From Heliocidaris erythrogramma (taxonomy: Eukaryota > Echinodermata > Echinoidea > Camarodonta > Echinometridae), in the NCBI GenBank assembly GCA_025617745.1, contig CM046871.1:30945579-31009578 (forward strand): DNA of 64,000 nt. Direction: 5' to 3'. The stretch's first letter is position 1; every line of letters begins with the position of its first letter. A program made the position numbers and the translations under genes. Shown one piece after another: positions 14,061-64,000 of the stretch. The notes under the pieces are model-generated. The model saw only the letters and a list, made by a program, of their open reading frames with translations, made no database searches and was not told the DNA's origin.

Positions 14061-14078
14061 TTTCAAAGACATTGCAAT

Positions 14079-24344: not shown

Positions 24345-24380
<36 letters not shown>

Positions 24381-28115: not shown

Positions 28116-28148
<33 letters not shown>

Positions 28149-33261: not shown

Positions 33262-33324
<63 letters not shown>

Positions 33325-39300: not shown

Positions 39301-39806
39301 ATGAAAGTTCACTCATATGCCTATTGTAATCATAGTGGCACAGTGAATGGTAATTTGGGTCTAATTTGTACATCAACCTCATTTATTTCGACTTTAAACA
39401 GTAATGTCATGATATTTGATATTGAGGTACATATACCTGTTAAGTTTATTCCAATGCAAAATATTGGCTATATGTTCAGTGGAATTCATTCCATTCCAAA
39501 ATATCGACTTGGAAATGAGAGGCAGAAGAAATTGTTTTTTATGTTTTCATCATTTAAATTCCGCTATTTCTGACTTGTTCATCAGACGATGTACGGACGT
39601 CTGGAGGAGGCTGACACCCTCATCGAGAGCTTGAGCCGAGACAAGGACCCCATCCTGCGACGGTCTGGCATGTACACCATCGCCCTTGCCTACTGCGGCA
39701 CCGGCAACAACAAGGCCATCAGGAAGCTCCTCCACTTCGCAGTCAGCGATGTCGATGACGATGTCCGCAGGGCTGCTGTCACCTCCCTTGGGTTCTTGCT
39801 GTTCAG
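16506..39806 (+). CDS. PSMD1: 26S proteasome non-ATPase regulatory subunit 1 (Rpn2), first 17 exons, 3' part outside window
   Basis: Rpn2 is the large scaffold of the proteasome lid-base interface. Exons with AG/GT borders: 16506-16524, 23001-23044, 23854-23927, 24499-24562, 26229-26334, 27797-27999, 28403-28480, 29058-29192, 29751-29914, 30501-30579, 31169-31309, 31841-31929, 32341-32593, 33550-33661, 36340-36416, 39026-39085, 39586-39806. They join in frame to 639 codons plus 2 bases; the family is about 950 residues. Landmarks: [12 protein letters not shown] (11-21), [12 protein letters not shown] (about 146-157), [14 protein letters not shown] (about 208-221), and an acidic variable linker (about 275-325). 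From about 335 come proteasome/cyclosome (PC) repeats with small-residue cores such as [10 protein letters not shown] and [11 protein letters not shown]. The last exon ends LGFLLFR at phase 2. The rest of the repeat toroid and the C-terminus are not in the window, so the next intron exceeds 24 kb. Exon borders are read by eye. Confidence 0.95.
16962..17140 (-). other. Exon-like segment, copy A, with acceptor and donor
   Basis: On the minus strand a pyrimidine-rich stretch ending CCCTTTCAG is followed by 179 open bases ending AACCTG, then GTAAGTTT. In phase 0 it encodes [12 protein letters not shown], then [19 protein letters not shown] and [15 protein letters not shown]. The product is not recognised. 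The intact splice borders and open frame suggest an exon of another gene captured by the repeated element. The 61-codon frame on the + strand over it is a shadow. Confidence 0.5.
17131..17268. repeat. 138-bp near-perfect palindrome, copy A
   Basis: The arms begin CTACGAAAACCTGAAAGGGC and end with its complement, TTCGTAG. The centre is an alternating TACGTACGTA run. It can fold as a hairpin of more than 60 bp and overlaps the acceptor side of the exon-like segment. Confidence 0.93.
17780..17958 (-). other. Exon-like segment, copy B
   Basis: Second copy of the 179-base segment, with the same acceptor (CCTTTCAG) and donor (GTAAGT) borders. It differs from copy A by very few substitutions, including a His-to-Asp codon change ([12 protein letters not shown]). 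The frame is still open. Confidence 0.5.
17949..18087. repeat. 139-bp near-perfect palindrome, copy B
   Basis: Same structure as copy A: CTACGAAGACCTGAAAGGGC at the left, its complement at the right, and an ACGTACGTA core. One arm carries a single-base change (ACGTACCTAATAA). Confidence 0.93.
18309..18519. repeat. Perfect inverted repeat, 98-bp arms, 15-nt loop
   Basis: The left arm AGTTTGCCCACAAAAACCTC (from 18,309 to 18,406) and right arm (18,422 to 18,519) are exact reverse complements by eye. The loop is ATTGCTTGCTGATGT. It marks the hinge between the tandem units on the left and the large TIR element on the right. Confidence 0.93.
19478..19614. repeat. 137-bp near-perfect palindrome, copy C
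   Basis: Third copy, inside the inverted unit. Arms read CTACGAAGACCCGGAAGGGC and its near complement (CCCTTCCAGGTCTTCGTAG), around TACGTACGTAGTAATTA. Confidence 0.93.
19606..19784 (+). other. Exon-like segment, copy C (inverted)
   Basis: Same 179-base segment, now on the + strand and therefore in PSMD1 orientation: acceptor CCTTCCAG, open phase-0 frame, donor GTAAGT at 19,785. Being sense to PSMD1 it could be spliced in as a cryptic exon. It is 179 nt (2 more than a multiple of 3), so inclusion would shift the PSMD1 frame. Confidence 0.5.
20579..20908. repeat. Short hairpin and a 139-bp MITE-like element
   Basis: At 20,579-20,620 GTGGAATGTACAAGCTT pairs with AAGCTTGTACTCCAC. At 20,770 ATCGTGGTTGAGGAAACC is repeated inverted, ending at 20,908, giving an 18-bp TIR element of 139 bp. 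There is no coding content. The interval between them is unremarkable. Confidence 0.75.
21255..21980. repeat. CT-rich (TCC/TCTTCC) minisatellite-like tract
   Basis: About 700 bp of almost pure pyrimidine on the + strand, organised as TCCTCCTCCTCTTCCTGTC units that change to TCTTCTTCC units. All long frames here (S, L and P rich on +, E and R rich on -) are artefacts. Such homopurine-homopyrimidine tracts can form triplex DNA. Confidence 0.95.
22130..22740 (+). repeat. Diverged relative of the 18.6-19.2 kb repeat
   Basis: The stretch matches 18,640-19,240 in order: CTCCTACCT..AATGGCC, CAAAATTATG..ACTGAAGAAAT, AGAAATGTACACAATG, GTGAGTTGAATTTATTGTAT and ATGAGTGG. It is clearly older, with many substitutions and insertions. 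It lacks the palindromic insertion. Confidence 0.7.
23045..24498. repeat. PSMD1 introns 2 and 3: poly-G runs and CT microsatellites
   Basis: Intron 2 (23,045-23,853) has G runs near 23,562 and 23,709-23,722 but no recognisable element. Intron 3 (23,928-24,498) has a CT-rich tract from about 24,191 to 24,480 with TCTCTC runs and two ATGCTCCCTCCCCCTCTGTG repeats. The tract ends beside the exon 4 acceptor and supplies much of its pyrimidine tract. Confidence 0.85.
24582..24767. mobile_element. 186-bp MITE with ACAGT..GGAACCT termini (pogo/Tigger-like ends)
   Basis: The left terminus TACAGTGGAACCT and the right terminus AGGTTCCACTTTGACTGTA are complementary apart from a 5-base interruption. The interior has paired TTGCTATAACAAA and TTTGTTATGA-like pieces. 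TA flanks and GGAACCT-type ends resemble non-autonomous pogo/Tigger elements. It lies in PSMD1 intron 4. Confidence 0.65.
24866..25533. mobile_element. ~670-bp MITE with 37-bp terminal inverted repeats
   Basis: TGTGACCCGCCGCCTCAAAA..CTACAATAAGTCGC at 24,869 pairs with GCGACTTATTGTAGGTTTTG..CGGGTCATA at 25,495-25,531. No coding region. It is in PSMD1 intron 4. Confidence 0.85.
26092..26217. mobile_element. 126-bp MITE ending 12 bp before a PSMD1 splice acceptor
   Basis: GGGAGCGTTTCATCAAGCG at 26,092 is repeated inverted as CGCTTGATGAAACGCTCCC ending at 26,217; the arms go on with TTTTGTCAGTGA. A degenerate relative is at 40,807-40,915. PSMD1 exon 5 begins at 26,229, so the branch-point region of that intron must lie within the element. 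Confidence 0.9.
26335..27796. other. PSMD1 intron 5, no element recognised
   Basis: No gene or repeat identified. An inverted pair of short motifs (GACGACGTCC / GACATCGTCTGC) around 26,950 and 27,430 is weak. Confidence 0.45.
28010..28285. repeat. GATGAT microsatellite in PSMD1 intron 6
   Basis: An imperfect GAT/GATGAA array starts about 15 bases after the exon 6 donor. The serine/isoleucine-rich frame on the minus strand is an artefact. Confidence 0.93.
28523..28690. mobile_element. 168-bp MITE in PSMD1 intron 7
   Basis: GTGATGCAAGAAAGTTGCGA at the left pairs with GCAACTTTCTTGCAACACC at the right; the arms continue with TTGATTGCAA on both sides. An internal AACCATTC pair is also seen. The remaining intron to 29,057 holds nothing else. 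Confidence 0.75.
30018..30067 (+). pseudogene. Duplicated 3' end of PSMD1 exon 9 inside intron 9
   Basis: The last ~47 bases of exon 9 (29,868-29,914: ACCACCCCAGC, then GAAGAGGAGAAGAA, then GAAGG) recur at 30,018-30,066 with about 8 substitutions, again followed by a donor-like GTGAG. If the upstream CCCAG were used as an acceptor the reading phase would not match exon 10, so it is probably non-functional. GATA and ACAGAC simple repeats follow (30,080-30,310). Confidence 0.75.
31310..33549. repeat. PSMD1 introns 11-13: mostly plain, with TA and GATGAT microsatellites
   Basis: Introns 11 (31,310-31,840) and 12 (31,930-32,340) are unremarkable apart from a TA run at about 32,086-32,102. Intron 13 (32,594-33,549) has a CCCTAA-like patch near 32,875-32,895 and a GATGAT array at about 33,120-33,325. 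The His-, Ile- and Met-rich open frames across it are artefacts. Confidence 0.85.
33900..35750. mobile_element. Probable non-autonomous mobile element bordered by GGTGGTCTGTC ends
   Basis: AATTAGGTGGTCTGTCC near 33,932 is echoed by TTAAGAGGTGGTCTGTC then GACAGACCACCT at 35,720-35,750. ATAATAATA-like sequence lies on both sides (33,890 and 35,751). The interior has CGCGCGTACGTGCGCGTCAT-type alternating purine-pyrimidine runs and repeated ATGACGTCA-like sites, but no transposase. The borders are approximate. Confidence 0.5.
34413..34478 (-). other. tRNA-like sequence with A and B boxes
   Basis: The minus strand has TGGTCTATCGGTAAAGC (A-box-like), then GGTTCGATCCC, a perfect B box. It is followed by a long T run (the A17 on the + strand at about 34,395), a good polymerase III terminator. 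The acceptor stem does not pair, so it is a tRNA-derived SINE head or pseudogene rather than a working tRNA. Confidence 0.6.
35751..36038 (-). mobile_element. tRNA-derived SINE with tRNA-Cys-like head and ATT tail
   Basis: Read on the minus strand from 36,038: TGGTCTAATGGATAAGTCA (A box), then GACTGCAGATCA, an anticodon arm with GCA as in tRNA-Cys. GGGGTTCGATTCCC (B box) follows, then a body with GGGTACCTGGTAGGATTTAT and GCATGCTAAAGCC-type sequence. It ends in an ATT tail at 35,751-35,762. Internal promoter plus simple-repeat tail is the classic SINE layout. It may belong to the SINE families known from sea urchins; naming one needs a repeat library. Confidence 0.8.
36635..36812. mobile_element. 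Fold-back element with a tRNA T-arm-like loop
   Basis: AAAGAATAATGGTTGCGTAA at 36,637 pairs with TTACGCAACCATTATTCT ending about 36,812. The ~60-bp arms also share AAAGTTCCCCAGAGCTGTC. The loop, on the minus strand, holds GACCCGGGTTCGATTCCTGG, a perfect B box with a stable T stem. It lies in PSMD1 intron 15. Confidence 0.85.
37003..37613. mobile_element. ~610-bp fold-back element, ~225-bp arms
   Basis: TTAAAGGCCAACTCCACCCT begins the left arm and AGGGTGGACTTGGCCTTTAA ends the right. Both arms contain GTGAGTGGGTGATGTCAC-type sequence and GAAATTTTCAGTG. The short frames at 36,996-37,199 (-) and 37,527-37,772 (+) are mirror products of the arms. No transposase. Confidence 0.9.
38325..38366. repeat. 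TA run, T run and G run in series
   Basis: Alternating TA changes directly to about 10 T and then about 12 G with one interrupting T. No coding meaning. The flanks in intron 15 (37,614-38,538) otherwise hold nothing recognised. Confidence 0.9.
38539..38804. mobile_element. hAT-like MITE, copy 1
   Basis: It begins CAGGGTGGTCCACAAACAAA and ends GGACCACCCTG. The flanking octamers ATCAGGAC and AACAGGAC differ at one base, fitting an 8-bp target-site duplication. A second copy is at 42,438-42,740, sharing CTCTGAGGCTTTCTGGTGCA. Confidence 0.85.
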
Positions 39807-42800
39807 GTGAGTCGTGTTGACTTTGTGAATGATTAAGCCTCATTAACAAATGATGAGGTACACTGCCTAAAAAAAAAAAATGCTGGGCACTTCAAAATAA
39901 ATCTGTTTCATGTGGAATGAAGTTGGGATGAAAAAAAGTAGCTACACCCAACAAAGGTCCATACATGTATTGAACTTGAAAACTTTATATGCCTTTGTGT
40001 TATAAGATATAGAGACGTAAACAGTAGTATTGCCCATGCCATTTTATTTTGCCATGGCGGTTTCGTTGAGGCGGTGTGCCTCGTCATGCGTGATCGAGAC
40101 TTTACGGAGGTGCTATGAACCTGTTGTGACTCCTTTTACATTCTCCGCAATACCTGTACGTGCTCGGAACAAAAAGTAACCAAAATCTTAAGTGTGTTGG
40201 TGTGTTTTGGTATGTTTTTGTTGTTGTTGGGTTTTTACAGGTGTGTATTAATGAGATCGGATTATGGGCGATTCCGTGCAGTGTCCCGTACGACGTATTA
40301 CATGTATATTTGTCCATGTATTTCATCCATAAATGACAAATATTTTGGTATGACCGTGACCTGTAGGTGATGATACCAGAAAGCACCATTATTTCAATGG
40401 TCATACTGAGAGTTACTTCATTTGTGGATGAAGTGTGTGGAGAAAAGGCATATGTCGTACGGGACACATGGCACAGAATCGCCCTTATCTACTTCTTGGG
40501 GCCAACCGTCAACGTCACAATCAGAAAGTTGCGCGCGCATGTCTCATGATTGCACCTTTGGTTGTTTGTCTAGGCAAACTAGAGTGTCGATTACCAGACC
40601 AACTTGAATCTGCCTAAGTAACCAATGCCCTGTCTTTATAAAGATTTGTGATTGATCCAAATATTGATCACAAACTCAACTCAAGTTTGATATCAATGAG
40701 TCACTCCTAACATGTTGAGAAATAGGCAGTCATAACTTGCGATCAATTTGGAAGAGGCTTTACAGTCAGTTTCGATCCATTGCAACCCTTTATATGATGA
40801 GACCAGGGGAGCGTTCCATCAAGTGTCTTGTCAGTGATTTTCACTGACAAATTTGCTCTTAACCAATCAGATGTAAGGATTTCAGTAGCTTGTAACAGTT
40901 GTCGGTAACTGATTTTTTTTGCAGAAGGCTGCAGGTCTTGTTTCAAATTTTCTTCTACAGATTTATGTATATACAGATCATACAAGAAAAGGATAAGATT
41001 GTTTTTCTTTTCATTTAAAGATAAATCTTTCGCAATTACATTGTGAAAGAAAGTTTCTCACATCAATTGGGAAAGGTTGATCATGTCTACATAAGAATTA
41101 GTGTATACTGTGAGGTTTGGGTTTGGGAATCCTCAAAATGATAAGGAATTGTCCCAATATTGCTGAAAAGCACATGCACTGCACACAGAATAGGGTATAT
41201 GGGACTGCACACACATGTAGCATGAATGTTCCGCTCGAACACTTCAGCTACATCTCGTCATATTTCAAAAATGAGGGCATTTGAAGAGCAATCCTTTTCA
41301 TGTGACATTACTATTATAATGTTCTTCCAAACTGACATAAAAGGAATGAGAAAGCTCACAAATTATTTTTCACCTTTCCGAGAACTTTAATACTCTTCTC
41401 TTTAATGCATAACACAGGTTATCATTTCAATATCGGAAACAACGAACAGCGAAATAAAGTTATATTATGAATACAATGGCAGTTTTGCGTATATTCTTCC
41501 TCCTCTACTTATTCATACCTGTACATGCAGGTGCATGTGATTACAACTAAAGCTTTCTTTCCAACTATGCATACATACATGTAACTGTACATGCACCTGT
41601 GCTTTCATGTAAATAAATGATATTGAATGCCCTTCACTCAAAGAATATGGTCTTGATAATTACATTTACATCATGAAACAGTAACGTGTACTTGCATGAA
41701 CTTGCGCATTAAATGGACGTGAAATCTTTAATGTTAATACAAAGCATCCATGGAAATGTCAAGTTTATTTTATTATTGTAAATGAATGGTCATTTTGAAT
41801 GTTGTTCCCTTGATATGCGTACATGAATGTATGCACCCTGTAACCGTGGCAAATATGAAATGTAAGCCAGGAGTAGGCACGTATCATGTAGGTTATAAAA
41901 TCATAGAAAGATCATTCTGTGTACCCCCAGTGGTTAAAAAAAAAAAAATCTTCTGCAATGCTTTTAAATTTGAAGGAAAAACAGAATTCCTACTCTCTGA
42001 TTTTCCTTAGACCTGTGTGTAAGGTACATGTAAGTGCATGATATGAATTACAACAATTTATTTCTTTCATGTACATGTACAAAAATATAAGAGTACAACT
42101 ACTTTGTCACATATTACCACACTGATACATGTAATGGTTGTACACGTTGGCCCTAGAACAACTCATCTTAAGGTTTTCTATTGCGACTCCATCATCAGGC
42201 TTTTCATTCCACATTTTCATCTTGATATTGCTACAATATACATGGACAGGTAATTTGTGCACTCAAAAGAATTTTATGGGAAGTGATCAAAGTTAAAAGA
42301 AAAGTTAATGTTCATTTTGAATAACAGTAATGAGAATTCTCTAAGTCATTACAAATGACTCCAATGTCTGAAAAGTCAGCATAGAATCATCTAAAATAAG
42401 AGAGTAATATTAAAGGATTTTCACACCAATATAACAACAGGGTGGTCCACAAACAAAAATTCAAAAATGTAAAATCACAACTGGGATTGAAGTATAAACT
42501 GATGTGTAAGAAGCGCGAAGTTCCTTGCGGCTGGAGTCAAGAGCCTGCTTGAGAGCCCTGGAAGTTCTGTGGTTCTCTGAGGCTTTCTGGTGCAATATCA
42601 GGCATGTTCGAAGTATTTTGAAACAAATTTAATGACTAATATTTCATAAATAATTTGGGTTGAAATCATTATTCAAGAAATTTTAACCTGTCGCTGATTT
42701 TCAAACCTGTAGTTGGAAAAACCCCTTTTGGACCACCCTGATAACAACCCATTATGTAACTTTGATTTCCATAACTTTTAGGACTAATATTTCAACTTTT

Positions 42801-43193
42801 AAGTTTATTTTCAGAAGTTAACTTGAATCTTTACTCGTCATCGCCTCAGTTCCCTTAAGCTTACTAAAATATACATGCACCTGACTTACTGGAGTATGTT
42901 AGTCCATTGTCCAAAAGTACAATCGTTTGATGAATCAGGAGTATTTGTAGCAATAAATACATACATGTTTTCACACAATATCATCCTCTTTCTTTTTGAT
43001 ATAAATAAGAGCATTCTGAGTTCGTGAGGCAAAACTTTCAGGTTGTATTAATTTTGTAACGACCATGTATTCCATTGTCACCTCTGTTTTGTAGAAAAAA
43101 ATACCTTATATTTCAGTGAAGCACTTCAGCACTATTCAGAGATGCATGTAGACAAATCTAAAATATATTTACAAGCCAGGGTTATAGTCGTAT
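39807..43193. other. PSMD1 long intron, first part: no gene, several repeats
   Basis: A fold-back lies at about 40,255-40,495 (GGGCGATTCCGTGC..GTCCCGTACGAC against GTCGTACGGGAC..GAATCGCCC). A partial copy of the 26,092 MITE is at 40,807-40,915. Repeated TGTACATGCACCTG-like sequence occurs near 41,520-41,605. A complete hAT-like MITE is listed separately at 42,438. Nothing coding is supported. Confidence 0.65.
42438..42740. mobile_element. hAT-like MITE, copy 2, with target-site duplication
   Basis: Termini are CAGGGTGGTCC and GGACCACCCTG. The 7-bp direct repeat ATAACAA lies immediately outside both ends (42,431-42,437 and 42,741-42,747). The internal sequence is homologous to 38,539-38,804 but about 37 bp longer, with a TTCCTTGCGGCTGGAGTCAA insertion. 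Confidence 0.9.
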
Positions 43194-44959
43194 TCATTGG
43201 GATGCCTCTGGCAATGCCCAAAGAGTGTTACATGTACCATGGCGATTCATGCTTCCATCATAGGCAACAAACTTCCGCCGCAAAGGGACACTCCTTTCTT
43301 TTCCCCTTTCTGTCCTCCTCACGTTAAAGGAATTTTTCTTCGGGAGGATGTATCTATTACATGATAAGAGCCTGATAAAAGCTCGTCTGAACCTGACGTT
43401 GAATGCAGTGTAGATGAAAGGGTTTACCATGCTGGATGCCCAGCCAATCCACGTGCAGATTGTAAATACAGTTGCATCAATGGCACAGTTGGGACAGTGT
43501 GCCCCAGTGACGTTTGCCACGAAGAATGGTGTCCAACCCACGACAAAGGCAATAAAGACAAGCCCAAGGACCTTGCTTGCCCTCTGCTCAGTGTTGAGCC
43601 GTTTCATGCCACTTGGGCCTTGGTGCGACATGGTTCTTCTCAGGCTTATATTAAAGTGAGTTGCATTTGGTTTGAGACTACTACTATCACTATTGTTTGA
43701 TGAGAGAGATGCATGGGACAGGTGGCACTCCTTCTGGGTCGGCAAGCTTTCAGTGCTTGAGGAATCGCACGTGGTGTCTTTGACAGATACAGGCTTAAAG
43801 CCATTCTTCTTAGCAGTCTGGAGAATGAACCTTGGATAGTTCTTCTGTTTGTCTTTGTTGTGGAGGGTGTTGTCTTTTTCTCTACAGAGTTTCATCTTCT
43901 TGTACAGGGTATACATTGTCAAGCAGTATGTGATCACGACAATGGACAACGGGATGAAGAACGCTACAACCGATCCGTAGATCATGAAGTGGATGTTGGT
44001 CACGGCACATTGGCGATTGTTGAGGACTGTTGCGGGTTGCAGGAAACCCATGATGCATAGAGGACTGGACAGTCCCGCTGCACAGGCCCATACGATGCAT
44101 ATTTTGATGATGATGCCACGTCGGGTTCTCGGTTGGCGTTTGCTCCTCAGTGGGTCACTGATGGCAAGGTAGCGGTCGATACTGACAGTGCACATGTGCA
44201 GTATGGACGATGTGCAACAGAATACATCCAGGGTGGTCCAGACATCACACATGATGAGGCCCATTGACCAGTAACCTGAAACACAAACAAGCAAATGTTT
44301 GACTAAAGATAAAAGAACTACATGTACATCAGTGACGAATAGAACATCCAATTTTTTCTTTGACAGATTTCCATCTGTAAGTGTCTAATTGAAATTTAGA
44401 AATAAAGGCAAAGTTATGTCTGAGAACAAATATGCACCTAATCATTGGAAGCTGTAAGACTTTTTAAAAAAATGTCACTCTATTATTTGATTTTATTAAC
44501 AAAACTACATTGTACATGTACTGGTACATGTTCTCTGAACAGCGCAGTACAAGTTGGGAATATTTCCATCATCTTTCTCAAGTCAAACATCCTCTTCAGT
44601 ACAAGTGCCAATATCAAGGATGTAAAGTTCTTACCTAGCAAGCCTGTTGCCAGTCCAAAGGGCATTACCAACAGTGCCACTAAGAGATCGGCCATGGCCA
44701 TGGAGAAGAGGAAAAGATTGGTCAGGTTCTGTAGTTTGCGATCCGTGCTGATGGCCAGACACACCAGCAGGTTCCCTACGATGCTGCAAACGATGATCGG
44801 TAATAGAAGCAGCACAGGCCAGCTGAGGTCAGCATCTGATACATCATCATTGTCATTGTAGTCGAATTCACTGTTTAACAGCAGTGTTGTGTTGTAGTTA
44901 TTAAGGTAGTTCTTAGGCCTAGCCTCAGAGGGAAGCAAGGATGGCCAGGTTGTCGCCAT
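43194..44959 (-). CDS. HTR2: Serotonin 5-HT2-type G-protein-coupled receptor, two coding exons
   Basis: A plasma-membrane aminergic receptor, expected to bind serotonin and couple to Gq. Exon 1 is 44,959-44,635 (donor GTAAGA) and exon 2 is 44,275-43,194 (acceptor TTTCAG), giving 468 residues; the phase-1 intron falls in the first extracellular loop. The ATG sits in ACCATGG. N-glycosylation sequon at Asn23. TM1 has GNLLV (Asn63); TM2 has Asp91; Cys118 should form the TM3 disulphide. Asp125 is the amine-binding Asp of TM3, and DRY is at 142-144. TM5 has AFFIPLSIVVITY; TM6 has EQRASKVLG then WTPFF (356-360); NPFIY is at 393-397; Cys414 is a likely palmitoylation site. TM3, TM5 and the EQRASKVLG block resemble 5-HT2 receptors more than dopamine or adrenergic ones. 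It lies whole and antisense within the last PSMD1 intron seen here. Confidence 0.92.
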
Positions 44960-47380
44960 GGTTACCTTAATTGATGTTTTGACCAGTGGAGGAACATCTC
45001 AGATGGGTTGCGAAGAGTCATCCAGTGTTGTTGGTAGAGTCCTGAAAAGGAAGAAAAAATCAAACAATAAGAAAAATTGAATGCATGTTGAATGGGGAAT
45101 GAATGTTGGTATCCACAGAAGTCTTCCCACCAGCATATATTTTAACTGGCATGGTACCCTGATATGAAATGATACATGTATCACGTACAGGCATGATTGC
45201 CTCACTTAGTGTCTGGTTGCAATTTCGAGGGAGTTGAAGAGGGGTATTAGCAGAACAGTGGCTGTAACTGATACCTCTCATGTAGGATCTTCCTCTTGCC
45301 ATTAACAATGATCCTTTGCCGGTAAAAGGAGTTAATGGTGGGTTGTGAGCCACGGAAAGCTTTGCCATGTGATCCCTGACCATTCCTAGTTTCCGAGGCT
45401 TATTTCACAAATACTTTTTCTTTGCCCAGTCCTGGCTTAAATTTTTGAAAGTCATCTATAACATGGATGCATTCATCATGACATTTTTTGCCACTAAAAG
45501 ATTGAAATGTTTGCGAAATCACAGATTTTAAACTCATAGGTGTGGTACATGTATATAGAAAACTAAGTTTAGGTCAAAATTGGACTTTCTGAAGTCTCAT
45601 GAATGCAACCAAGCTCCTGAAGACATTCATATTTTGCCATACATGTACTTCAGGCTGCAGGTGCGCACGCTACAAATTAGCATCAGCGATGTGGTCAGTT
45701 CTTAATTGTGGCTTCAAGAAATCCTGTGAACGCAAAGACTGTGCATCATCTGTGATGATTGTGGTGTTTCAATGCGTTGCCTTGAAAGATCTCTGCAAGC
45801 AAGATGATTAGCGCTACATGTAGCTCATGGAGCTGTGAGCCAAGCGTGTAAATTGTCAGGCACAGGCTGAATGATGTGTGCAGCTTCACATTATTACTCC
45901 CTCCGGAAATTCAATGTTTAGAAATGAATTTATGAAATATGGACGGCACGTCAGCCCTTAAAAAGTGCCTCCCAACCCTCTTAGAACCATTCCCCGCCTG
46001 TGGGTACCAAAAGGTGGGGACCGAAAGAGCCAGGGGAGGCGCCTATTCGAACCAAAAAAAAGGCCCAAAATCCTTCGCGTAATATATATATAGACTGACG
46101 ATTGGTACTACAAAACTTAAAGATAACATTTAACAAATTCATAGTGACGAAGCTTTTCGTCCTGCACTCATCGGGTCACAACGCAGGAATGAGAGAATAC
46201 AAGAAAATACGAAAGTCAAGGAAGGGTGTGTACAGCGACCCGGATATGATCCAGGCACGCTAAAATAATCGAAGAGCCTGTACAAACTCCTTTTGTCGGC
46301 ACAATAGCGGATCTCTCGACTGAATGAACAACACCTCTAAGAAGCGAAGATGCTGAGAGCTGGGTGCTCAGGTAACAATAGTGAACTGAGCATGGTTATA
46401 CGCCGTGGAAGTCCGAAGTTTGCTCCCGCGGGGCAACGGCATGATCAGGTAATGATCACGCGTGCCCTCTCGCGGCATAAAACCCTCCACAATCTGCGGT
46501 TGAGTATCCCTTTAACGCACTTTGCATCTCTGTCTCTCTGTATCTTTCTTACAACACAAATTTTGTGTACTTTGTGGGGGCTTTCTTTTTTTCACCCCCA
46601 TTTCGCTTTTATGTATGTACAGTGTTTTGAGTTGGATTACCATGTCATATCTGAACGAGGCTACATGTACACTACCAGTGTTATTGGATGCGTTTTAATG
46701 GGATTTACCATAGATGGGTAGGGACTTCTACTAAGTTTCTGCTACAGTGGTCACAATGTGTTTAAAACACATTCTCAAAAACTGAATGTTCTGGAAATTC
46801 CAGTGATACAAATACCGGTAGACATTCCTTGCCCATTTTTCATATAATCATTTGATGTTTACGACATATGGGCCTAATTAATGCGTTGGTCCATTAAACG
46901 TAATTTAATTTAAACGTAAATTTTTAACCTCTTTTTAACTTCTTTTAAAACTACATACCATGCTATTGTCTAACTGGATTTGGACCATGCATAAAGTATA
47001 ATAGATGTGCTATAAAGGTGATACACGATCTATCACGCATGATGTGGGCTTGGATTCCCATGGGATTGTCTACCAGCGACACTGTATCACCCACCCTAAA
47101 TACCTGTGACCCATGTAGCAGAAAACATATCATTCAAAATTGTTGCCCGCCCATCCTTTTGATTCCAAAACAAATTAAGACCGGATATAACTTTGCAAAC
47201 CAATGGTTTTGCACAAACTTTTTGATTGTACACGATAACAATGCACATGATCTGGTGATCCAGCCACAGATGTGATGAAGTTTCTCTTTAATATGCACCT
47301 GCATTATACCTGTGGCTTTAAACCTCAATGACTGCACCGTAAAAAGCAACCTCACTATAAAAACACTAGAGTGATCTGTT
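44960..47380. other. Upstream flank of the receptor gene, no gene seen
   Basis: Any promoter or 5' UTR of the receptor would lie here, on the minus strand. No clear TATA box or further exon is visible. The short frames (45,599-45,811; 46,350-46,721) are unrecognised. Confidence 0.45.
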
Positions 47381-47545
47381 AACTGGGCGTTGTGGCGTGC
47401 GCCTGTAATCCAGCTACCAGTGGAAGTTACAAACTGATTCAGCGGACCCAGGTTCGAGACTGAGTCACGTCTTTCGGATGGCCACGTTAAAGGTCGGTCC
47501 CAGACATCTGATTGATAAACGTCTGTAAAAACCCAATTACACACA
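47381..47545 (+). mobile_element. SINE with a 7SL RNA (Alu-domain)-like head
   Basis: From 47,385, GGGCGTTGTGGCGTGCGCC followed by TGTAATCCAGCTAC reproduces the Alu-domain core of 7SL RNA (GGGCG-GGTGGCGCG-GCCTGTA-TCCCAGCTAC), about 28 of 35 positions by eye. Further along, GATTCAGCGGACCCAGG and GGTTCGAGACTGAG parallel the 7SL/Alu region around the B box. A body with CTTTCGGATGG, CCACGTTAAA and GGTCGGTCC and an ACACACAC tail follow. No 7SL S domain is present, so it is a retroposed SINE or 7SL fragment, not an SRP RNA gene. Confidence 0.7.
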
Positions 47546-48679
47546 CACATGTTACAAAAAGTCTGTTCCCTGCATCTAATTTGTTAGTAAAAAACTGACA
47601 ATCTGACAAACATGTATGCTGACAATTGTTGGTAAAATCTCTGTATAAACTACATACATGAACAAGTGTAGGAAACCTACCAAGCTCTAATGGAATAGTT
47701 TTTACCAGTTACAAACGATTTCATTGTCAAACGTATTCCCATTGATCCTTCCTAGTTATAATAAGCTTTTACATCTTCAACATATAAATGAATAATGGTC
47801 ATTATTTTCTCAAAGACATGAAACCAGTTGCAAGTAAATAATACACAATACTTTTCTTGCTTCCATGCTCACATAAAACACAAAAGCATGGTGTCATCAT
47901 GAAGCTACATTGATGGTGTTTTCATTTCAAAAGACCGAACTCACAATTCTTACCTTTTTGTAAGTTGTAGAGCTACTTTTGTGTGACTTGTAAGCAACTC
48001 TTTTGGAGCTTTCAAAGATCCAAGCCATTCACTGCTCACAACTATTTTCTTCTTTTTTTTTCTCTGCTGCTTGATAATACTTCGAACAATCCCAAAGTAA
48101 ATATTAGTCTGAAGTTTAATACAGTGCAGTGTGCAAAGTGGTTTATCCCCGATGTAATGAATCTAATCAGAGTAGTCGTCACAGTTCTCCTGCACACCAT
48201 TGACAGGTTGACATGGAGCTAGAAATAGGTGCTGTTGTCCTTTTAGAAATTGTCAAACTTCAATCCATACAGTATGCATTTAGATATGTACATAAACAAT
48301 AAGCGAGTTCGTAATTTGGATTTGCGCGTGAGCAGATAAAGGTCATTTGAGATAAACTGGCATGTTCGTTTAAAATTCACTGAGATAAGCATCGACTGTG
48401 ATGTAATGATTATTCATATATTCATTTTATTATACTTTTCATTAAATCCACTGAAAAGCAACAAAGTGTTCATTGATGGTTGGCTTTTGACAGTCTGCCA
48501 AATGATAGCCAACTTGCAAACAATGCGCTTTCCCAAGTGTTCATTGACGTACTATTCTAGTCACCTGGTCTACGATGTCTTTCTTTCATAGAGTTTGAAT
48601 TCTGTAGGTTGCTATGTCGGGCAAGCTTACATATTATCTTTCTTTGAAAAGATGCCTATCCTAATGAAAAAAGGGATAG
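47546..48679. other. Gene-free intron stretch
   Basis: Nothing recognised; small open frames only. Confidence 0.5.
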
Positions 48680-52140: not shown

Positions 52141-52148
52141 TGTTATGT

Positions 52149-56433: not shown

Positions 56434-56450
56434 ATTTACTACAATAAATC

Positions 56451-56588
56451 AATGTACCTACCTATTTGCTAGTCTTCCGACTGCGCAAGCCATTCGAGTA
56501 ATTAAAGTCACGACAGTGCATATACCCCCCTAGGATCACGCCTTCCTCTGTGCACGTACGCATGACGCGCGCACACAATCCTCCTCTT
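56451..56588 (+). repeat. DIRS left terminal inverted repeat
   Basis: From AATGTACCTACCTATTTGCT to CCTCCTCTTT. It is the inverted partner of 62,451-62,588, with GACTGCGCAAG here against GACTACGCAAG there. It contains CACGACAGTGCATATA and a CGCGCG run; the element's promoter is presumably in or just after it. Confidence 0.95.
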
Positions 56589-57048
56589 TCCTTCTCGCAG
56601 CCTAAAGAGTTGCAGCTAAGTCACTATCTTGCGCAAAAATTCAGAGTTTGCTACTCTTTTAGCGCGTTTTGGGGTGACTTTTGCCAATATTTCCGTCCTA
56701 GACTTGTTTATTATCTGTTTAGTGTCGGTTTATGTCTGTCACGTATTTATTTTGGTGATATTTGAGCTTATATTCATACCTCACTTTTCACCTCTTTCGT
56801 ATAGTAGCCCAGGGCATTCGCTTTGGCGTTTTGCCGGGCGCTCAGCCCTGTAACGTTTCGTTGGTGTTTCGTGTGTGTGGCTGTTGTGTGCATATACCCT
56901 TACGAGAGTGTTCTTTTGTTCGTAGTGCGTGAATGGAATTTTCCACACATTGCGCGGGAAAAATCCATTCCGTTTCACTCTCGCTTTGTACGCCCTTTTC
57001 TTTATAATTGTTTATTGTTGACTCTTTTATATCTCCTTACAGGTGATA

Positions 57049-59325
57049 ATGAGTTCTTCGGAGGAAGAGCAATCGAGGTCTTGGTTACCTCCAGGCTCTT
57101 CCAATTCTTCTTCCCTCCCGTCCACTACTCTCACTTATAAGGGCGTCAGCCCAGTGAGTGTGTTGGAGACCTCTGTGTTTCGCTCGCCTACCAGCGAGTC
57201 AAACACGATGGTTAGGGGAGGTAAGGGCGTCAGTCTGTCTGCTCGCTCTGGTATTTTTGTACCGGGAGCGTCGAGCAAGACAGGCTGTATAGGTAAGTTA
57301 GGTGTTCATAAGTCTTCGGACCGAACACCCGTCATTAGCAATTCTAGCTCCCTCCAACTCACGACCACCGCGTCTGCAGTTGGGGGGGCGGTAGCTAGTA
57401 TTACCGGGTCCTCTCGACCCCCGACCACCGTCGGGAGCCTGGAGGGGGCATTAACTGGTAAGACCGCTAAGCGGTCAGCTAATGATGTTACTGGGTCTTG
57501 CCGACCCCCGACCACCGTCGGGGTGCCTAGCGAGATTTCACCCAGTGTTACTGGCTTCCCCCGACATCCGACCACCGTCGGTGTGTCTGGGGGAATTACA
57601 GCCGGTAACGTAAATCCGCATCCCGCTAAGAAGACCTCCTCCTCGAGCAGGTTCTCGCAGCGGAAGACTGCTGGTTCCCGCCAGCCACTGACCAACGTCA
57701 GTGCTCCGGGTGCTATTTCCAGCAGTGCTGCAATGCAGCAGCCCGTCCACTCCCCGGCAGTCAATGCGAATCGGGGCTCTGGTCGGGGAAGCACAGTCCC
57801 TAGAGTTGCGGCCGAATTACTTCTCCCCACTGGGGAGCCCGGCCCGGACAATTTCGGTAGTAAGGCTTTTATACTGCAGCCTAACACTTCCCGTGCTTCT
57901 AAACGGCCTTCTATTACGGTGGCTCACACCCCCGCTAAGAAGCCTAAAGCCAAGAAGGGTAAATCCAAGGATAAACCCAAGTCGGGTAAGAAGGCTCAGC
58001 CCTCTCTTCCCCCCGACTCTCAATCTGAGCTGCTCAGATTAATGAGACTCTTTGCTGAGCAGCATGGTTGGGATACTAATCCCCCGACGCTGCCGGCTAC
58101 TGAGACGGGTTCTCCCCAGTCAGTTGTCACTGTGATGGAGGATGTTCCCGAGTCGGACCCCGGTGTTTTCCCGGTCTCCGATATTCATGAGAACCTGGGA
58201 CAATTTTGTCCGAATGCGGTTTCTCGACCTACTCCTCCCGTGCCTGCGGCTCTCGGAGCCCCGCCGGGGGAGGAGTCTGTCACTGGTCCGTGGGCATATC
58301 CACCCCCATGGGATTTTCCCCACCGGACTACTTCTCCCGAAATTGATTCTGTCTCGCAGGTTTCTACCCCGTCTGTTTCAGAATCTCAGGCCGGCTACGA
58401 CCCCCAGCCTTGTCAGGCTATGGCGGCAGATGCCAAGGCCCTGTTAGAGAAGTATATGCCAGAAATTTTCCCCCAAGTCCAGTCGGACAGTGATCAGCCA
58501 TCGCTGTTATTCAGACAGCATGGCCCGTCTCCTGGTATTCCTCTTACAGAGGACTTCAAACAGGAGTATGGGGATAGGGAGGCACTCGCCGATGCGGGTC
58601 GGGCTACCCGACGCCCCTTTGGTAGTGCCTTCTCTTTCTATCGGGATGATACCCAGGGCTTCTTTTCAGCCAAGGGTTTATCCCAGGAAATTATGGGTAT
58701 GGGACAACGTTTGAATATCAATTTCAAGTCTCAGTCCTATAGATCCGCCGAGAAGCCCCTAGTGAACTTTGAAACCAAAGTCAGGTCGGGCTTAAGGCTT
58801 TCGGCGTACCTGGGTTCACTGTTACGCCTTCGGGCCAGATCAGTTGAACTGAATGTGACCGAGGGAGACTCCAAATTGTTGGATGAACTCCTGCTTTTGT
58901 TAGCTGGACTTCAGTGGTCTCAGCTCTCATCAGCGGCGATTGACATTACGCATCAACGCCGCAAGCTGGCGCTCTCCACACTGGGAGTGCTAGAGAAAGA
59001 CATCCCGCCTCTCTTGCGGGGTATCCCTTCCTCTCATCCCAAACTCTTTGGGGGCCTGTTTAACGAGGTCTTCCTCAAAGAGATAGAGGGTCGCAAACAG
59101 GCAAAAGAGATGGCCAGACAATTCTTGCCCACTCAGCCTGCTCGGTCCTTTCCGAAGTCTAAGTCGGTCTCGACAGGCGCTAACCGCTCAAATCGTCGAG
59201 TGACTGTGACTATCCCTCGGGTTGAGACCCCTACCCTGAGCAACCGTGGTAGAGGCTCGGCGAGAGGAAGAGGGGGGCGTAAGACCGCCGCCAAGGGCAC
59301 GGTCAGGCCCAAGTCGGCCTTTTGA
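57049..59325 (+). CDS. DIRS ORF1, gag-like protein (758 aa)
   Basis: ATG at 57,049 (MSSSEEEQSRSW). The frame is open to TGA at 59,323. The product is Ser/Pro/Thr-rich. About residues 120-225 hold four degenerate ~30-residue repeats with the core R-P-P-T-T-V-G (RPPTTVG, RPPTTVG, RHPTTVG, RQPLTNV). A lysine-rich stretch (AKKPKAKKGKSKDKPKSGKK) at about 300-320 looks like a nuclear or nucleic-acid-binding signal. A more ordered C-terminal half (LLRLRARSVELN) follows, and the tail is Arg/Gly-rich (RGSARGRGGRK). A gag-like role in RNA packaging is inferred from position and composition. CTCCTTACAG just before the start resembles a splice acceptor. Confidence 0.85.
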   Translation: MSSSEEEQSRSWLPPGSSNSSSLPSTTLTYKGVSPVSVLETSVFRSPTSESNTMVRGGKGVSLSARSGIFVPGASSKTGCIGKLGVHKSSDRTPVISNSSSLQLTTTASAVGGAVASITGSSRPPTTVGSLEGALTGKTAKRSANDVTGSCRPPTTVGVPSEISPSVTGFPRHPTTVGVSGGITAGNVNPHPAKKTSSSSRFSQRKTAGSRQPLTNVSAPGAISSSAAMQQPVHSPAVNANRGSGRGSTVPRVAAELLLPTGEPGPDNFGSKAFILQPNTSRASKRPSITVAHTPAKKPKAKKGKSKDKPKSGKKAQPSLPPDSQSELLRLMRLFAEQHGWDTNPPTLPATETGSPQSVVTVMEDVPESDPGVFPVSDIHENLGQFCPNAVSRPTPPVPAALGAPPGEESVTGPWAYPPPWDFPHRTTSPEIDSVSQVSTPSVSESQAGYDPQPCQAMAADAKALLEKYMPEIFPQVQSDSDQPSLLFRQHGPSPGIPLTEDFKQEYGDREALADAGRATRRPFGSAFSFYRDDTQGFFSAKGLSQEIMGMGQRLNINFKSQSYRSAEKPLVNFETKVRSGLRLSAYLGSLLRLRARSVELNVTEGDSKLLDELLLLLAGLQWSQLSSAAIDITHQRRKLALSTLGVLEKDIPPLLRGIPSSHPKLFGGLFNEVFLKEIEGRKQAKEMARQFLPTQPARSFPKSKSVSTGANRSNRRVTVTIPRVETPTLSNRGRGSARGRGGRKTAAKGTVRPKSAF

Positions 59326-59496
59326 TACCTTACCCCGAGTGCTTGTGGACAGTGTAGGCGGGCGGCTCCAGAGATTCCTCCCAGTTTGGGGGGCAATCTC
59401 CGGCGACGCCTTCGTACTATCCGTCGTGCGCGACGGCTTTTACATAGATCTGATAAAGCCGATTCCAAACGGCGCCATCAGAATCCGCCGCCTCCA

Positions 59497-61269
59497 ATGT
59501 CAGCCCTTTTCCAGCAGCACATCTCCTCAGAGATCGCCACGCTGCTGGGAAAGGGCGCTGTAGAAAGGGCGAGAGATCATCCTCATCTCTGTCTCTCCCC
59601 AATTTTTGTCATTCCCAAGCGCTCGGGAAGTTTACGTATGATTCTAAACATGAAAAGAATCAACAGGTTTATACCTCCAGTGCATTTTCGCATGGAGACC
59701 TTGGCATCTATTCTGCCCTTGATCAAGCGGGACGACCTTGCGATCTCCCTCGATCTCAAAGACGCGTACTTTCACATTCCCATTCACTCTCTGTCGAGAA
59801 ATTTGCTGGGATTCGCGTTCCAGGGCGAAACGTTTCGATTTCGTGCCCTGCCCTTTGGGCTGAGGCCGGCTCCTCGAGTCTTTACTCGAATAGTGTCGGC
59901 CCTGGCCGCGTTTCTACGGAATCGCGGCCTCCGATTATTCGTCTATCTAGACGATTGGCTCCTAGTTGCAAACTCAGAGTCCCTCCTGTTGGATCAGTTA
60001 TGCCTTTTACTGCGACTAACGCAAGACTTAGGCTTTCTGATAAACTGGGAAAAATCGGAATTATCTCCCACACGTACCCCGGTGTACTTGGGTGCGGAGA
60101 TAGATATCCCGAATCAGCTTGCCCGCCCCAGTCGGGACAGTATTCGGACTATCACCATGACCGCACGGTCATTGCGAGTAGCCCGCAGGGTCAGAGCCAG
60201 ACAATGGCTTCAATTCCTGGGCTATCTGGCCAGTCTAGTCGACGTCTTACCAGACTGCAGGCTGTTGATGAGGCCCTTTCAGAGGCACCTCCTCAAGTTT
60301 TACAGACCAGGCAAAGATTCTCTTTTGGGGTGGATTCCACTCCCAAGTGATATCAAGCTCCTTCTCGCCCCCTGGTCGAACAGTTCGTTTCTTGCCCAAG
60401 GCAAGCCTCTCTGTACACCTCTTCCGTCAGTTTCTCTGACGACAGACGCCTCCCTTCTCGGTTGGAGCGGTCATTGCCGGGGCGAGATGATTTCAGGGGA
60501 CTGGTCTCACTTGAGAGTTATGCCCCATATCAATGTTTTGGAAATGATGGCGGTCAGCCTGTCTCTTCATCATTTCAGGCCCGGTCTTGTTGGTCGCACT
60601 GTACTCGTTCTTACGGACAATGTCACAGTAGCTGCCTATATCAATCGCCAAGGCGGCACTCGGTCTTCCTCTCTGAACACCTTAGCTGCCCAGTTGTGGA
60701 GGTGGTGCCGGTCTATGAACATTATTCCGGTAGCCTCCTACATTCCCGGTCAGGAAAATCTGATCGCGGATTTTCTGTCGCGGGGCAAATGCCTCCCGTC
60801 AGAGTGGACTCTTCATCCGGAGGTGTTTGCTCTTCTCCAAGAGGTGTGGGGTCCTCTGGAGATCGATCTGTTCGCCTCCACCCTCAATCACCGACTCCCG
60901 AGGTATTGCTCGCGGGTTCGGGATCAGGAGGCGTGGGCGATGGATGCCTTTTCCCTCCATTGGGGAGCTATCCGGGGGTACGCTTTTCCCCCCATTCCTC
61001 TGATCCCTCAGGTCTTGAGGAAGGTCAAGGAGGACAGGGCTTGGCTCTTGTTGATAGCCCCACATTGGCCAGCGAGACATTGGTTTCCAGACCTGCTGAG
61101 TCTCCTGGCCGGCCAGCCGTTTCCCCTTCCTCTCAGGGAGGATTTGATAATTCAACCCCTCTCGGGGATTGTTCATCAACGCCCAGCGGTCCTCCACTTG
61201 ACTGCCTGGCCGTTGTTGGGGAAGACGCCAGAAACTCGGGGCTCTCCGAAAGGGCCTCCCAGTTTGTAA
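59497..61269 (+). CDS. DIRS ORF2: reverse transcriptase, RNase H and methyltransferase-like domain (590 aa)
   Basis: First ATG at 59,497 (MSALFQQH), but the frame is open back to the ORF1 stop at 59,325 and is the same frame as ORF1. RT: FVIPKRSGSLRMILNMK, then motif A LDLKDAYFHI, and catalytic YLDD at residues 150-153. GFLINWEKSELSP and VYLGAEID end the RT. RNase H: TTDASLLGWSG, HINVLEMMAV, VLTDNVTVAAYI and YIPGQENLIADFLSR supply the D-E-D-D set. The C-terminal part (LEIDLFAS, WAMDAF, LLIAPHWPARHWF) fits the adenine-methyltransferase-like domain of DIRS elements. It makes the cDNA copy of the element. Confidence 0.93.
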   Translation: MSALFQQHISSEIATLLGKGAVERARDHPHLCLSPIFVIPKRSGSLRMILNMKRINRFIPPVHFRMETLASILPLIKRDDLAISLDLKDAYFHIPIHSLSRNLLGFAFQGETFRFRALPFGLRPAPRVFTRIVSALAAFLRNRGLRLFVYLDDWLLVANSESLLLDQLCLLLRLTQDLGFLINWEKSELSPTRTPVYLGAEIDIPNQLARPSRDSIRTITMTARSLRVARRVRARQWLQFLGYLASLVDVLPDCRLLMRPFQRHLLKFYRPGKDSLLGWIPLPSDIKLLLAPWSNSSFLAQGKPLCTPLPSVSLTTDASLLGWSGHCRGEMISGDWSHLRVMPHINVLEMMAVSLSLHHFRPGLVGRTVLVLTDNVTVAAYINRQGGTRSSSLNTLAAQLWRWCRSMNIIPVASYIPGQENLIADFLSRGKCLPSEWTLHPEVFALLQEVWGPLEIDLFASTLNHRLPRYCSRVRDQEAWAMDAFSLHWGAIRGYAFPPIPLIPQVLRKVKEDRAWLLLIAPHWPARHWFPDLLSLLAGQPFPLPLREDLIIQPLSGIVHQRPAVLHLTAWPLLGKTPETRGSPKGPPSL

Positions 61270-62249
61270 TGAGAAGCCGTAGAGACTCCACTAGAGATCT
61301 CTACAACTCTCGTCTAGGGGCCTTCTTTTCTTGGTGCGAGAATCTGGGTGTCTCGCCACGTGAAGCCCCTATCGGTGTTATTGCCGATTTTTTGATCTCC
61401 CTTTTCGATAAGGGTAGATCGATTTCAACCATACGTGGCTATCGTTCGGCTATTGTCGCCGTCCACGTTGGTTTTGCTGATGGTTCGGGAGTCTCCAACT
61501 CCCCTCTTTTGGCTAGGTTGACTCGCTCCTTCTTCTTGCAGCGTCCATCAACTCGTAGCCTGACTCCTTCTTGGAGTCTACCCAAGGTCCTTGACGTGCT
61601 TGCGAAGCCACCTTTTGAACCTTTGGGTAAAGCGTCCTTTCACCATTTAACGGTCAAGACGCTATTTTTAGTCGCTATTGCTTCGGCACAGAGGAGGAGT
61701 ACTCTTCATGCTCTGTGTATAACACCGGGTCACATCCGTTGGGAAAACCATGGTGTGCGACTTATACCCAAGCCCTCCTATATTGCCAAAAATCAGACTG
61801 CTTCCTCTGGACCAGTTGAGATTTTTCTTAGACCGCTGTCGGACCATTCCTCAGTGCAGGAGGATAAGGTCTGGTGTCCGGTGAGGGCCTTGAAATGGTA
61901 TTTAGATAGGACTAAGACTCTTCGTAAGAGTGATCAGCTTTTTGTCATCACTCGAGAGCCCTTTTCCGCCGCTTCCAGAGAATCCATTTCTAGATGGATA
62001 GTCGAAGCGATCCAGGCAGCTGGGCCGGAGGCCCTATTGACTGATGGGAAGCCCCGTGCTCACGATACCAGGGGCATCAGTGCCTCTTGGGCTCTTTTCC
62101 AAGGGGTGCCCCTAGTGGACATTATGAGGGCAGCCTACTGGCGTTCCTCCACGTCCTTCACATCTTTTTATTTAAAAGATGTTCTGTCTGAAGAGTCTTT
62201 TTCTAACAAGACGTTGCAAGCTGCAACGTCATCCTTGGGTCCCTGTTGA
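61269..62249 (+). CDS. DIRS ORF3: tyrosine recombinase (326 aa)
   Basis: The ATG overlaps the ORF2 stop (TAATG at 61,267-61,271). The frame is open further upstream, but the region before overlaps ORF2. The N-terminal helical domain includes TRDLYNSRLGAFFSWC and STIRGYRSAIVAVH. The catalytic domain has the first Arg in SAQRRSTLHAL (residue 142 or 143), the H-x-x-R box HDTR (His265, Arg268), and Tyr301 in TSFYLKD, the nucleophile. The enzyme replaces an integrase and recombines the circular cDNA with the target. All three catalytic positions are present. Confidence 0.93.
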   Translation: MRSRRDSTRDLYNSRLGAFFSWCENLGVSPREAPIGVIADFLISLFDKGRSISTIRGYRSAIVAVHVGFADGSGVSNSPLLARLTRSFFLQRPSTRSLTPSWSLPKVLDVLAKPPFEPLGKASFHHLTVKTLFLVAIASAQRRSTLHALCITPGHIRWENHGVRLIPKPSYIAKNQTASSGPVEIFLRPLSDHSSVQEDKVWCPVRALKWYLDRTKTLRKSDQLFVITREPFSAASRESISRWIVEAIQAAGPEALLTDGKPRAHDTRGISASWALFQGVPLVDIMRAAYWRSSTSFTSFYLKDVLSEESFSNKTLQAATSSLGPC

Positions 62250-62290
62250 CCTTCCTCTTGGGACATGCCCCCCATTTGAATCTGTGCTGG

Positions 62291-62390
62291 TCTAGCAAAT
62301 AGGTAGGTACATTGATTTATTGTAGTAAATCAGTAAAATCAGAATTGATTTTATTATTTGCTAGATAAATCTATGTACCTACCTATGTCC
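62291..62390. repeat. DIRS internal complementary region
   Basis: TAGCAAATAGGTAGGTACAT..TAGTAAAT is the complement of the left terminus. TCAGTAAAATCAGAATTGAT..CTACCTATG is the complement of the right terminus. The junction is AAAT at 62,327-62,330, complementary to the ATTT at both element borders. Confidence 0.93.
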
Positions 62391-62450
62391 CACCCTCCTA
62401 CCCCACTCCTTGCCTAGCAACATGTCAAAGTTTGTCTGAGGCTGCTCGTA

Positions 62451-62588
62451 AAGAGGAGGATTGTGTGCGCGCGTCATGCGTACGTGCACAGAGGAAGGCG
62501 TGATCCTAGGGGGGTATATGCACTGTCGTGACTTTAATTACTCGAATGGCTTGCGTAGTCGGAAGACTAGCAAATAGGTAGGTACATA
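62451..62588 (-). repeat. DIRS right terminal inverted repeat
   Basis: Runs from AAAGAGGAGGATTGTGTGCG to AGGTAGGTACAT, the inverted copy of 56,451-56,588. A unique right extension (62,589-62,629) completes the terminus. Confidence 0.95.
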
Positions 62589-62633
62589 GATTTATCTAGC
62601 AAATAATAAAATCAATTCTGATTTTACTGATTT

Positions 62634-62968
62634 CAAACTTTCCTTGCAGGCCACAATTGGTGATGTCATGGCCCAGATAGCAGGAAGACTGCTGAAGAAT
62701 TTAATCAAATTGTGTTTGGGAATATAGGCATTCAAATGAAGCAAAAGGAAATGTAGAAAAAGAAACTTATAAATGCTGGAGGATTTAGTCAATGTAATTA
62801 AATGCAGCAGTGCGGCACTAAAAATTCAATAATTCGGCCTTCCATTTTCCATGCTACTAACTCTTCCTTTCTGGGCCTTTACTTTTGTCCACTGTTTCTT
62901 TCAGTCTTTCCTTGTTATTGTATCCCCCGGCAGTATGCCGGAGGATACTTTGGATTCAGCAGCGTTTC
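62634..62968. other. Flank downstream of the DIRS element
   Basis: TTTCCTTGCAG at 62,640-62,650 resembles a splice acceptor, but the following frame (ATIGDVMAQIAGRLLKNL) does not match the next expected PSMD1 sequence and stops soon. No gene is supported. Confidence 0.45.
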
Positions 62969-62991
62969 GCCGCCGCCGCCGCCGCCGCCGC
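62969..62991. repeat. GCC trinucleotide repeat
   Basis: About seven GCC units, next to CCGGCAGTATGCCGG, a small perfect inverted repeat at about 62,928-62,942. Confidence 0.93.
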
Positions 62992-63003
62992 GTCACATTC
63001 TTG

Positions 63004-64000
63004 TGTGCGCTCTAGCGGTCACATTTCTCGACGAATTTTTTTCAAACTTTCTGTGGACGTGTATCTTGGTAAAATCTGGACCCCTATAGTTTCTGGTGAT
63101 GCTGCCCCCAGTGTTCCGTCTTTTATAGGGTAAAAGGCCATATTTTTGGGGATAGTTTGTGTGCGCTCTAGCGGTCACATTTCTCAACGGATTTTGTTCA
63201 AATTTTGTATGAAGGTGTCTCTTGGTAAAATCTGGAACCCTATAGATTTTGGTGATGCTGCCCCCAGTGTTCCGTCTTTTATAGGGTCAAAGGTCATATT
63301 TTGATAGATGTCTTGTGTGTACTCTTGTGTGCGCTCTGGCGGTCACATTTCTCAACGGATTTCGTTCAAATTTTGCATGAAGGTGTCTCTTGGTGTAATT
63401 TAAAAACCTATAGTGTTTGGTGATGCTGCCACCAGTGTTCCGTCTTTTATAGGGTCAAAGGTCATACTTCAGGGCATGGCGTGAGTGCACTCTGCAGGCC
63501 ACATTTCTCAACGGATTTTGTTCAAATTTTGTATGGAGATGTATCTTGGTATAATCTACACATGTTTAATTTTTGGTGATGCTGCCCTCATTGTTCCGTC
63601 CTTTATAGGGTCAAAGGTCATTTTTCCATTTCTTGCACTCTTACTTCTGCATTTCTCGACGGATTTCGTTCAAATTTTGCATGAAGGTGTCCCTTGGTGT
63701 AATCTAAAAATCTGTACTTTTTGGTGATGCTGCCACCAGTGTCCCGTCTTTTATAGGGTCAAAGGTCATACTTCAAGGGATGGCGTGAGTTCACTCTGCA
63801 GGCCACATTTCTTGATGGATTTCTTTCAAATTTTGTATGGAGATGTATCTTGGTATAATCTACACATCTTTACTGTTTGGTGATGCTGCCCTCATTGTTC
63901 CGTCCTTTATAGGGTCAAAGCTCATTTGTCCCTTTTGTGCAATCTTACTTCTGCATTTCTTGACGGATTTCATTCAAATTTTGTATGGAGATGTATCTTG
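63004..64000 (+). repeat. Tandem repeat, about 156-bp unit, at least six copies, runs off the window
   Basis: Each unit reads CTCT(A/G)..GGTCACATTTCTC, then ACGGATTT(T/C)GTTCAAATTTT, TGTCTCTTGGT, TGGTGATGCTGCC, GTTCCGTCTTTTATAGGGTC and AAAGGTCAT. Spacing of the GGGTCAAAGGTCA motif (63,128 degenerate; 63,284; 63,452; 63,608; 63,756; 63,912) is 156, 168, 156, 148 and 156 bp. Two unit types appear to alternate (CCCCCAGTGTTCC against CCCTCATTGTTCC). There is no conserved open frame. Confidence 0.95.

Follow-up and report, generated by a model that had tools for sequence, protein, structure and literature searches.

Results

The 64,000-nucleotide stretch of the sea urchin Heliocidaris erythrogramma analyzed here (the window; positions 30,945,579-31,009,578 of contig C19, which has 37,017,750 bases) carries the beginning of PSMD1 on its plus strand and a gene for a 5-HT2-like receptor on its minus strand. 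PSMD1 encodes the proteasome subunit Rpn2 and is essential. Its coding exons 1 to 17 occupy positions 16,506-39,806. The coding part of exon 1 (16,506-16,524) reads MKITSAG, ends in phase 1 and agrees with the N terminus of the Lytechinus pictus model P0121, and exon 2 (23,001-23,044) encodes 15 residues; the donor side of exon 1 and the whole of exon 2 were taken directly from the sequence. The 14 exons numbered 3 to 16 (23,854-39,085) and exon 17 (39,586-39,806) show AG/GT borders throughout and compatible phases, and their joint translation is 97% identical to the P0121 model. Exon 17 alone matches PSMD1 chains in the PDB (E 1.4e-41) and finds a single match in its own genome. Its donor, TTC AG/gtgagt, closes the exon in phase 2 after LGFLLF(R). 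The first-pass annotation of this DNA had PSMD1 stopping here in mid-protein, with no later exon in the window, and the exon reading and the searches bear this out: six C-terminal PSMD1 queries against 39,807-64,000 returned no exon (best E 0.93), while an N-terminal query run as a control gave 15 window matches at E ≤ 0.004.

The rest of the gene was located by searching the complete assembly (1.064 Gb in 26 contigs) with the PSMD1 protein of Acanthaster, 46 of the 53 candidates being scored. All 15 reported matches fall on the plus strand of C19 at one locus, and six of them lie past the end of the window. The next exon, which the first-pass annotation expected on the plus strand beyond 64,000 and starting in phase 2, is present at window-extended positions 78,536-78,650 (exon 18), in the complementary phase. 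The AG of the exon 17 donor and the A of the acceptor together form a codon for R, and the frame runs from LGFLLFR into TPEQCPTVVSLL, which starts TPEQCP. Seven more exons follow, the last ending in a stop near 102.5 kb that comes after the conserved C terminus, giving approximately 25 coding exons in all, with exons 19 to 21 placed by motif, the last four placed by eye and the C-terminal half not joined as one frame. Human PSMD1 has 25 exons. The window and the 79.6 kb retrieved past its end are both free of ambiguous bases (N).

Intron 17 of PSMD1 thus extends from 39,807 to 78,535 (38,729 bp, phase 2), with 39,807-64,000 lying in the window. The 14 introns that separate exons 3 to 17 are all much smaller, at 403 to 2,678 bp. 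Two other introns are large, namely intron 1 (~6.5 kb) and the one that follows exon 19 (~19.3 kb, window-extended 79,647-98,959), and no receptor was found in either. The latter contains simple repeats and, on the minus strand, a 980-codon open frame that appears LINE-like by eye.

The receptor gene lies on the minus strand and has two coding exons. The first (44,635-44,959) runs from the start codon to transmembrane segment 2 (TM2) and the second (43,194-44,275) from TM3 to the C terminus, separated by a 359-bp phase 1 intron (44,276-44,634) between TM2 and TM3. The product is complete, with 468 residues and no internal stop, as the first-pass annotation had it. Because PSMD1 exons 17 and 18 join in phase around this gene on one contig, the receptor is nested in the PSMD1 intron: its coding exons, the parts that were mapped, lie wholly within intron 17, in antisense. 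The proposal of an antisense receptor inside a PSMD1 intron, made from the window alone, is demonstrated directly by this join. The recognized coding features of the intron are the receptor and a retroelement described below. Stop-to-stop frames between 64,000 and 78,534 are no longer than 121 residues; other frames in the window part of the intron reach at most 138 residues outside the element, and the search for relatives did not extend to them.

Several comparisons establish the identity of the receptor. In the PDB, the open reading frame (ORF) of exon 2 matched 5-HT2C, 2B and 2A best, and the nearest database proteins, among the matches listed, were 5-HT2-like receptors of the sea urchins S. 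purpuratus (79%), L. variegatus (75%) and Diadema setosum (62%). In a 69-row tree, which settles 5-HT2 membership and not the deep branching order inside the clade, the window receptor falls into a 62-row 5-HT2 clade (100/99) alongside vertebrate HTR2A/B/C. The DRD2 and ADRA1A rows (one each) and the 5-HT1, D1B and octopamine-beta rows stand outside that clade. The receptor pairs with S. purpuratus (97/88) inside an echinoderm group of eight (100/97), and the five vertebrate 2A/2B/2C rows group in a single clade (100/100). A further tree concurs in setting it apart from 5-HT1, D1 and octopamine-beta receptors. By sequence relationship, then, the receptor is a member of the 5-HT2 family, as first supposed, and a 5-HT1, D2 or alpha-1 identity is ruled out by the 69-row tree.

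The ligand pocket agrees with this assignment in most respects. At the positions that we take to be D3.32, R3.50, G5.42, S5.43, W6.48, F6.51, F6.52, N6.55 and P7.50, the window receptor has the same residues as all three vertebrate rows in the comparison; at 5.46 it has A, like two of them, the third having V. The S3.36 and Y7.43 of vertebrate 5-HT2 receptors are absent, and C3.36 and W7.43 stand in their place. C3.36 is found in all eight invertebrate rows compared, the window included. W7.43 is found in all four echinoderm rows, with Y in seven rows from vertebrates, hemichordates, molluscs, nemerteans and insects. Since each is common to all the invertebrate or all the echinoderm rows compared, these residues would be marks of lineage and not limits of the family. 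W7.43 could alter the ligand preference of the echinoderm receptor.

To follow the pair into other animals, receptor and PSMD1 protein rows were compared, from hand-typed values, by the size of the longest contig on which each protein lies. The rows were the best 120 of each search, out of 179 and 1,082 for the receptor and 3,003 for PSMD1, and scoring in the PSMD1 search covered the 7,988 candidates with most words in common. Both a species name and a contig size were available for 54 PSMD1 rows and 68 receptor rows, with both proteins represented in 23 species. In 14 of these 23 the two genes lie on contigs of identical size, or in 14 of 20 once two spiders (whose receptors are 5-HT1-like, both in the further tree and one of them also in the 69-row tree) and Mytilus (whose receptor belongs to another paralog group in the 69-row tree and lies on a short scaffold) are excluded. 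The 14 comprise three hemichordates (Saccoglossus, Ptychodera and Glandiceps), two nemerteans (Lineus and Tubulanus), the annelid Owenia and eight molluscs (Mactra, Dreissena, Sinanodonta, Argopecten, Ylistrum, Patella, Littorina and Babylonia). Among all 54 PSMD1 and 68 receptor rows, no contig size recurs between different species; we take identical sizes to mean the same contig, which suggests linkage of the two genes. In 12 of the 14 species the shared contig measures at least 16 Mb. Saccoglossus has a small shared scaffold of 241 kb and Ylistrum one of 1.2 Mb, and it is these two that speak for closeness of the genes, Ylistrum being the one from outside the deuterostomes. When relatives were sought in other contig sets, PSMD1 gave 23 pattern matches and no relative in genome contigs; in viral contigs the receptor gave 7 pattern matches and PSMD1 43, with no relative for either.

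A second group of mollusc 5-HT2-like receptors (P0018, P0019, P0026 and P0092) was also observed, its members being named D2-like, D3-like or 5-HT2A or left unnamed. One member, from Dreissena, lies on a contig of the same size as that of PSMD1, and in Haliotis rufescens a member of this group and another 5-HT2 receptor lie on contigs of equal 9-Mb size, hinting at an old duplication near the PSMD1-receptor locus.

The residue at the end of exon 17, which corresponds to human R628, was then surveyed in the best 120 PSMD1 models. Most run on with TPEQ or a near variant (98/120), and seven lack the searched motif. Ten end exactly at the residue where urchin exon 17 ends: models from two sea urchins (L. 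pictus and Diadema antillarum), a sea star, a bivalve, a gastropod, a brachiopod, a horseshoe crab, a sea spider, a macaque and one more. Divergence begins directly after this residue in another four (gecko, rattlesnake, Erpetoichthys and a second macaque model), and one residue sooner in the Gopherus model. The ends of the other shortened models are scattered at later places. These alignments make it likely that an exon boundary exists at this PSMD1 residue in several phyla, vertebrates included, and gene annotation often breaks off at this point. The breaks would support an identical intron, and are not proof of a nested gene within it. In H. erythrogramma, an AATAAA motif lies on the plus strand at 39,896-39,901, 90 bp past the exon 17 donor, where it could direct polyadenylation of a short PSMD1 transcript or be a chance match. 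Reading through the donor into R-stop, together with this motif, may permit a short PSMD1 of ~640 residues resembling the L. pictus and Diadema antillarum models.

Two mobile elements accompany the genes. The one inside the host intron is a DIRS-like retroelement on the plus strand (approximately 56,434-62,633), with a reverse transcriptase ORF (59,386-61,269), a tyrosine-recombinase-like ORF (60,462-62,249; weak Phage_integrase match, E 0.028) and 146-nt inverted terminal repeats. Because these repeats are 99% complementary, a recent insertion is suggested, which would have enlarged the intron. The other, at 13,092-15,359, upstream of the first PSMD1 coding exon, is LINE-like and has endonuclease and reverse transcriptase ORFs.

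Discussion

In vertebrates, HTR2B is nested antisense in PSMD1. The sea urchin locus has the same host, the same receptor family and the same opposite-strand arrangement. Compared with vertebrate HTR2B, the nested urchin gene is the echinoderm 5-HT2 receptor, a co-ortholog of 2A, 2B and 2C. Nesting at the DNA level is documented by our analysis in H. erythrogramma alone; that the 14 linked species have the receptor in the same intron, and that the site is homologous to that of vertebrate HTR2B, we infer. Titles and the beginnings of abstracts that we searched, mostly outside subscription journals, contained no PSMD1-5-HT2 nesting in invertebrates, and one hit concerned PSMD13 instead of PSMD1. 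PSMD1/HTR2B/ARMC9 has been named as one suggestive locus, in a passage that makes no mention of nesting (PMC3990600).

Since identical contig sizes reach hemichordates, nemerteans, an annelid and molluscs, the receptor-PSMD1 linkage looks bilaterian in age, and the nesting, judged from these comparisons, probably is as well. The first-pass annotation had placed the origin of the nesting before the split of echinoderms and vertebrates. Inheritance from such an ancestor is supported, whereas the depth assigned to it may be too shallow in view of the signs of linkage in nemerteans, the annelid and molluscs. We therefore propose that the antisense nesting of the receptor in the 38.7-kb intron 17 is inherited and goes back, most likely, to the bilaterian ancestor. 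An inversion or translocation whose breakpoint parts the receptor from the host exon on either side would break PSMD1 and be purged by selection, and the two genes could be separated only if the receptor were copied elsewhere and the nested copy then lost. Copying out seems possible because receptor and PSMD1 fall on different contigs in four heterobranch gastropods, and because Dreissena (P0027) and Babylonia (P0251) keep unlinked receptor paralogs beside the linked ones. A nesting of bilaterian age, retained passively through its essential host, is the explanation that we favor, with modest confidence.

Several observations weigh against this proposal. A shared contig of chromosome scale shows only a common ancestral chromosome or linkage group. 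True 5-HT2 receptors that share no contig with PSMD1 occur in Aplysia, Lymnaea, Plakobranchus, Bulinus, Lottia and Lingula; the first four are the heterobranchs just mentioned, and in Lingula both scaffolds are short. That an essential host acts as a cage is something that we infer. Moreover, PSMD1 models ending at one exon can arise when annotation splits genes at large introns, a phase 2 exon ending in AG before a GTRA donor automatically reads R-stop, and our query itself ended at exon 17, favoring such models in the ranking. For the last two reasons, the idea of a selected short PSMD1 isoform, drawn from the ten exact FR ends, was demoted. For the fuller statement that a 5-HT2 gene has stood antisense in one phase 2 PSMD1 intron since the bilaterian ancestor, and that this intron may also yield an ancient short PSMD1, we put the chances only slightly above even.

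The main rival to retention by an essential host is that the nesting is ancient and locked by regulation, through receptor enhancers in PSMD1 introns or antisense-coupled transcription. The host intron dwarfs its 14 neighbors and so offers room for regulatory elements, and conserved microsyntenic pairs within echinoderm topologically associating domains have been tied to long-range regulation (PMC13317027). However, roughly 6 kb of the intron is a young-looking retroelement, the other large PSMD1 introns have reached ~6.5 kb and ~19.3 kb with no receptor found in them, and the four heterobranchs carry the genes on different contigs. We consider a regulatory lock unlikely, while ranking it ahead of the next alternative, in which only the chromosome-scale linkage is ancient and the nesting arose separately in urchins and vertebrates. 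The contigs of at least 16 Mb in 12 of the 14 linked species are uninformative on closeness and leave room for such separate origins. Nevertheless, the Saccoglossus and Ylistrum scaffolds carry both genes, PSMD1 models of several phyla break at one exon, and it would have to be a coincidence that urchin and human agree in both host and orientation, and we regard separate origins as improbable. An artifact, either a misjoined window or a truncated or split PSMD1 with the receptor merely downstream, could be suspected from the lack of any row named full-length sea urchin PSMD1 in the best 120 and from the L. pictus and Diadema antillarum models stopping at exon 17, and was dropped as exceedingly improbable after the remaining exons were located on the same contig, in order and on the same strand, with exon 18 matching in frame and phase, a stop after the conserved C terminus, gap-free sequence and a full-length PSMD1 model in Acanthaster.

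Inherited nesting within PSMD1 can be set beside other long-lived gene pairs. To our knowledge, few nested pairs last across phyla. Synapsin-TIMP and the cholinergic locus (VAChT in ChAT) are deeply conserved examples, in which, likewise, a small gene lies inside an intron of another across phyla. Unlike in those pairs, the host in the urchin is a proteasome subunit gene, and we know of no functional tie between PSMD1 and the receptor. The pairs pax1/9-slc25a21 and mipol1-foxa, ancient microsyntenic neighbors kept since the bilaterian ancestor, as we propose for PSMD1 and the receptor, are described as linked neighbors, whereas here one gene lies within an intron of the other (PMC11175523).

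The nesting of HTR2B in vertebrate PSMD1 is already known, and the sea urchin case adds unusual depth to it. If the arrangement is indeed bilaterian, it would serve as a natural test of what keeps nested genes in place, setting protection by an essential host against regulation, and heterobranch gastropods, from which the pair has apparently been lost, could be contrasted with lineages that keep it. Orthology among 5-HT2 receptors would then be anchored by position as well as by sequence, the echinoderm, hemichordate and spiralian genes deriving from one locus, and urchins, acorn worms, scallops and vertebrates would have kept a gene within a gene for more than half a billion years.

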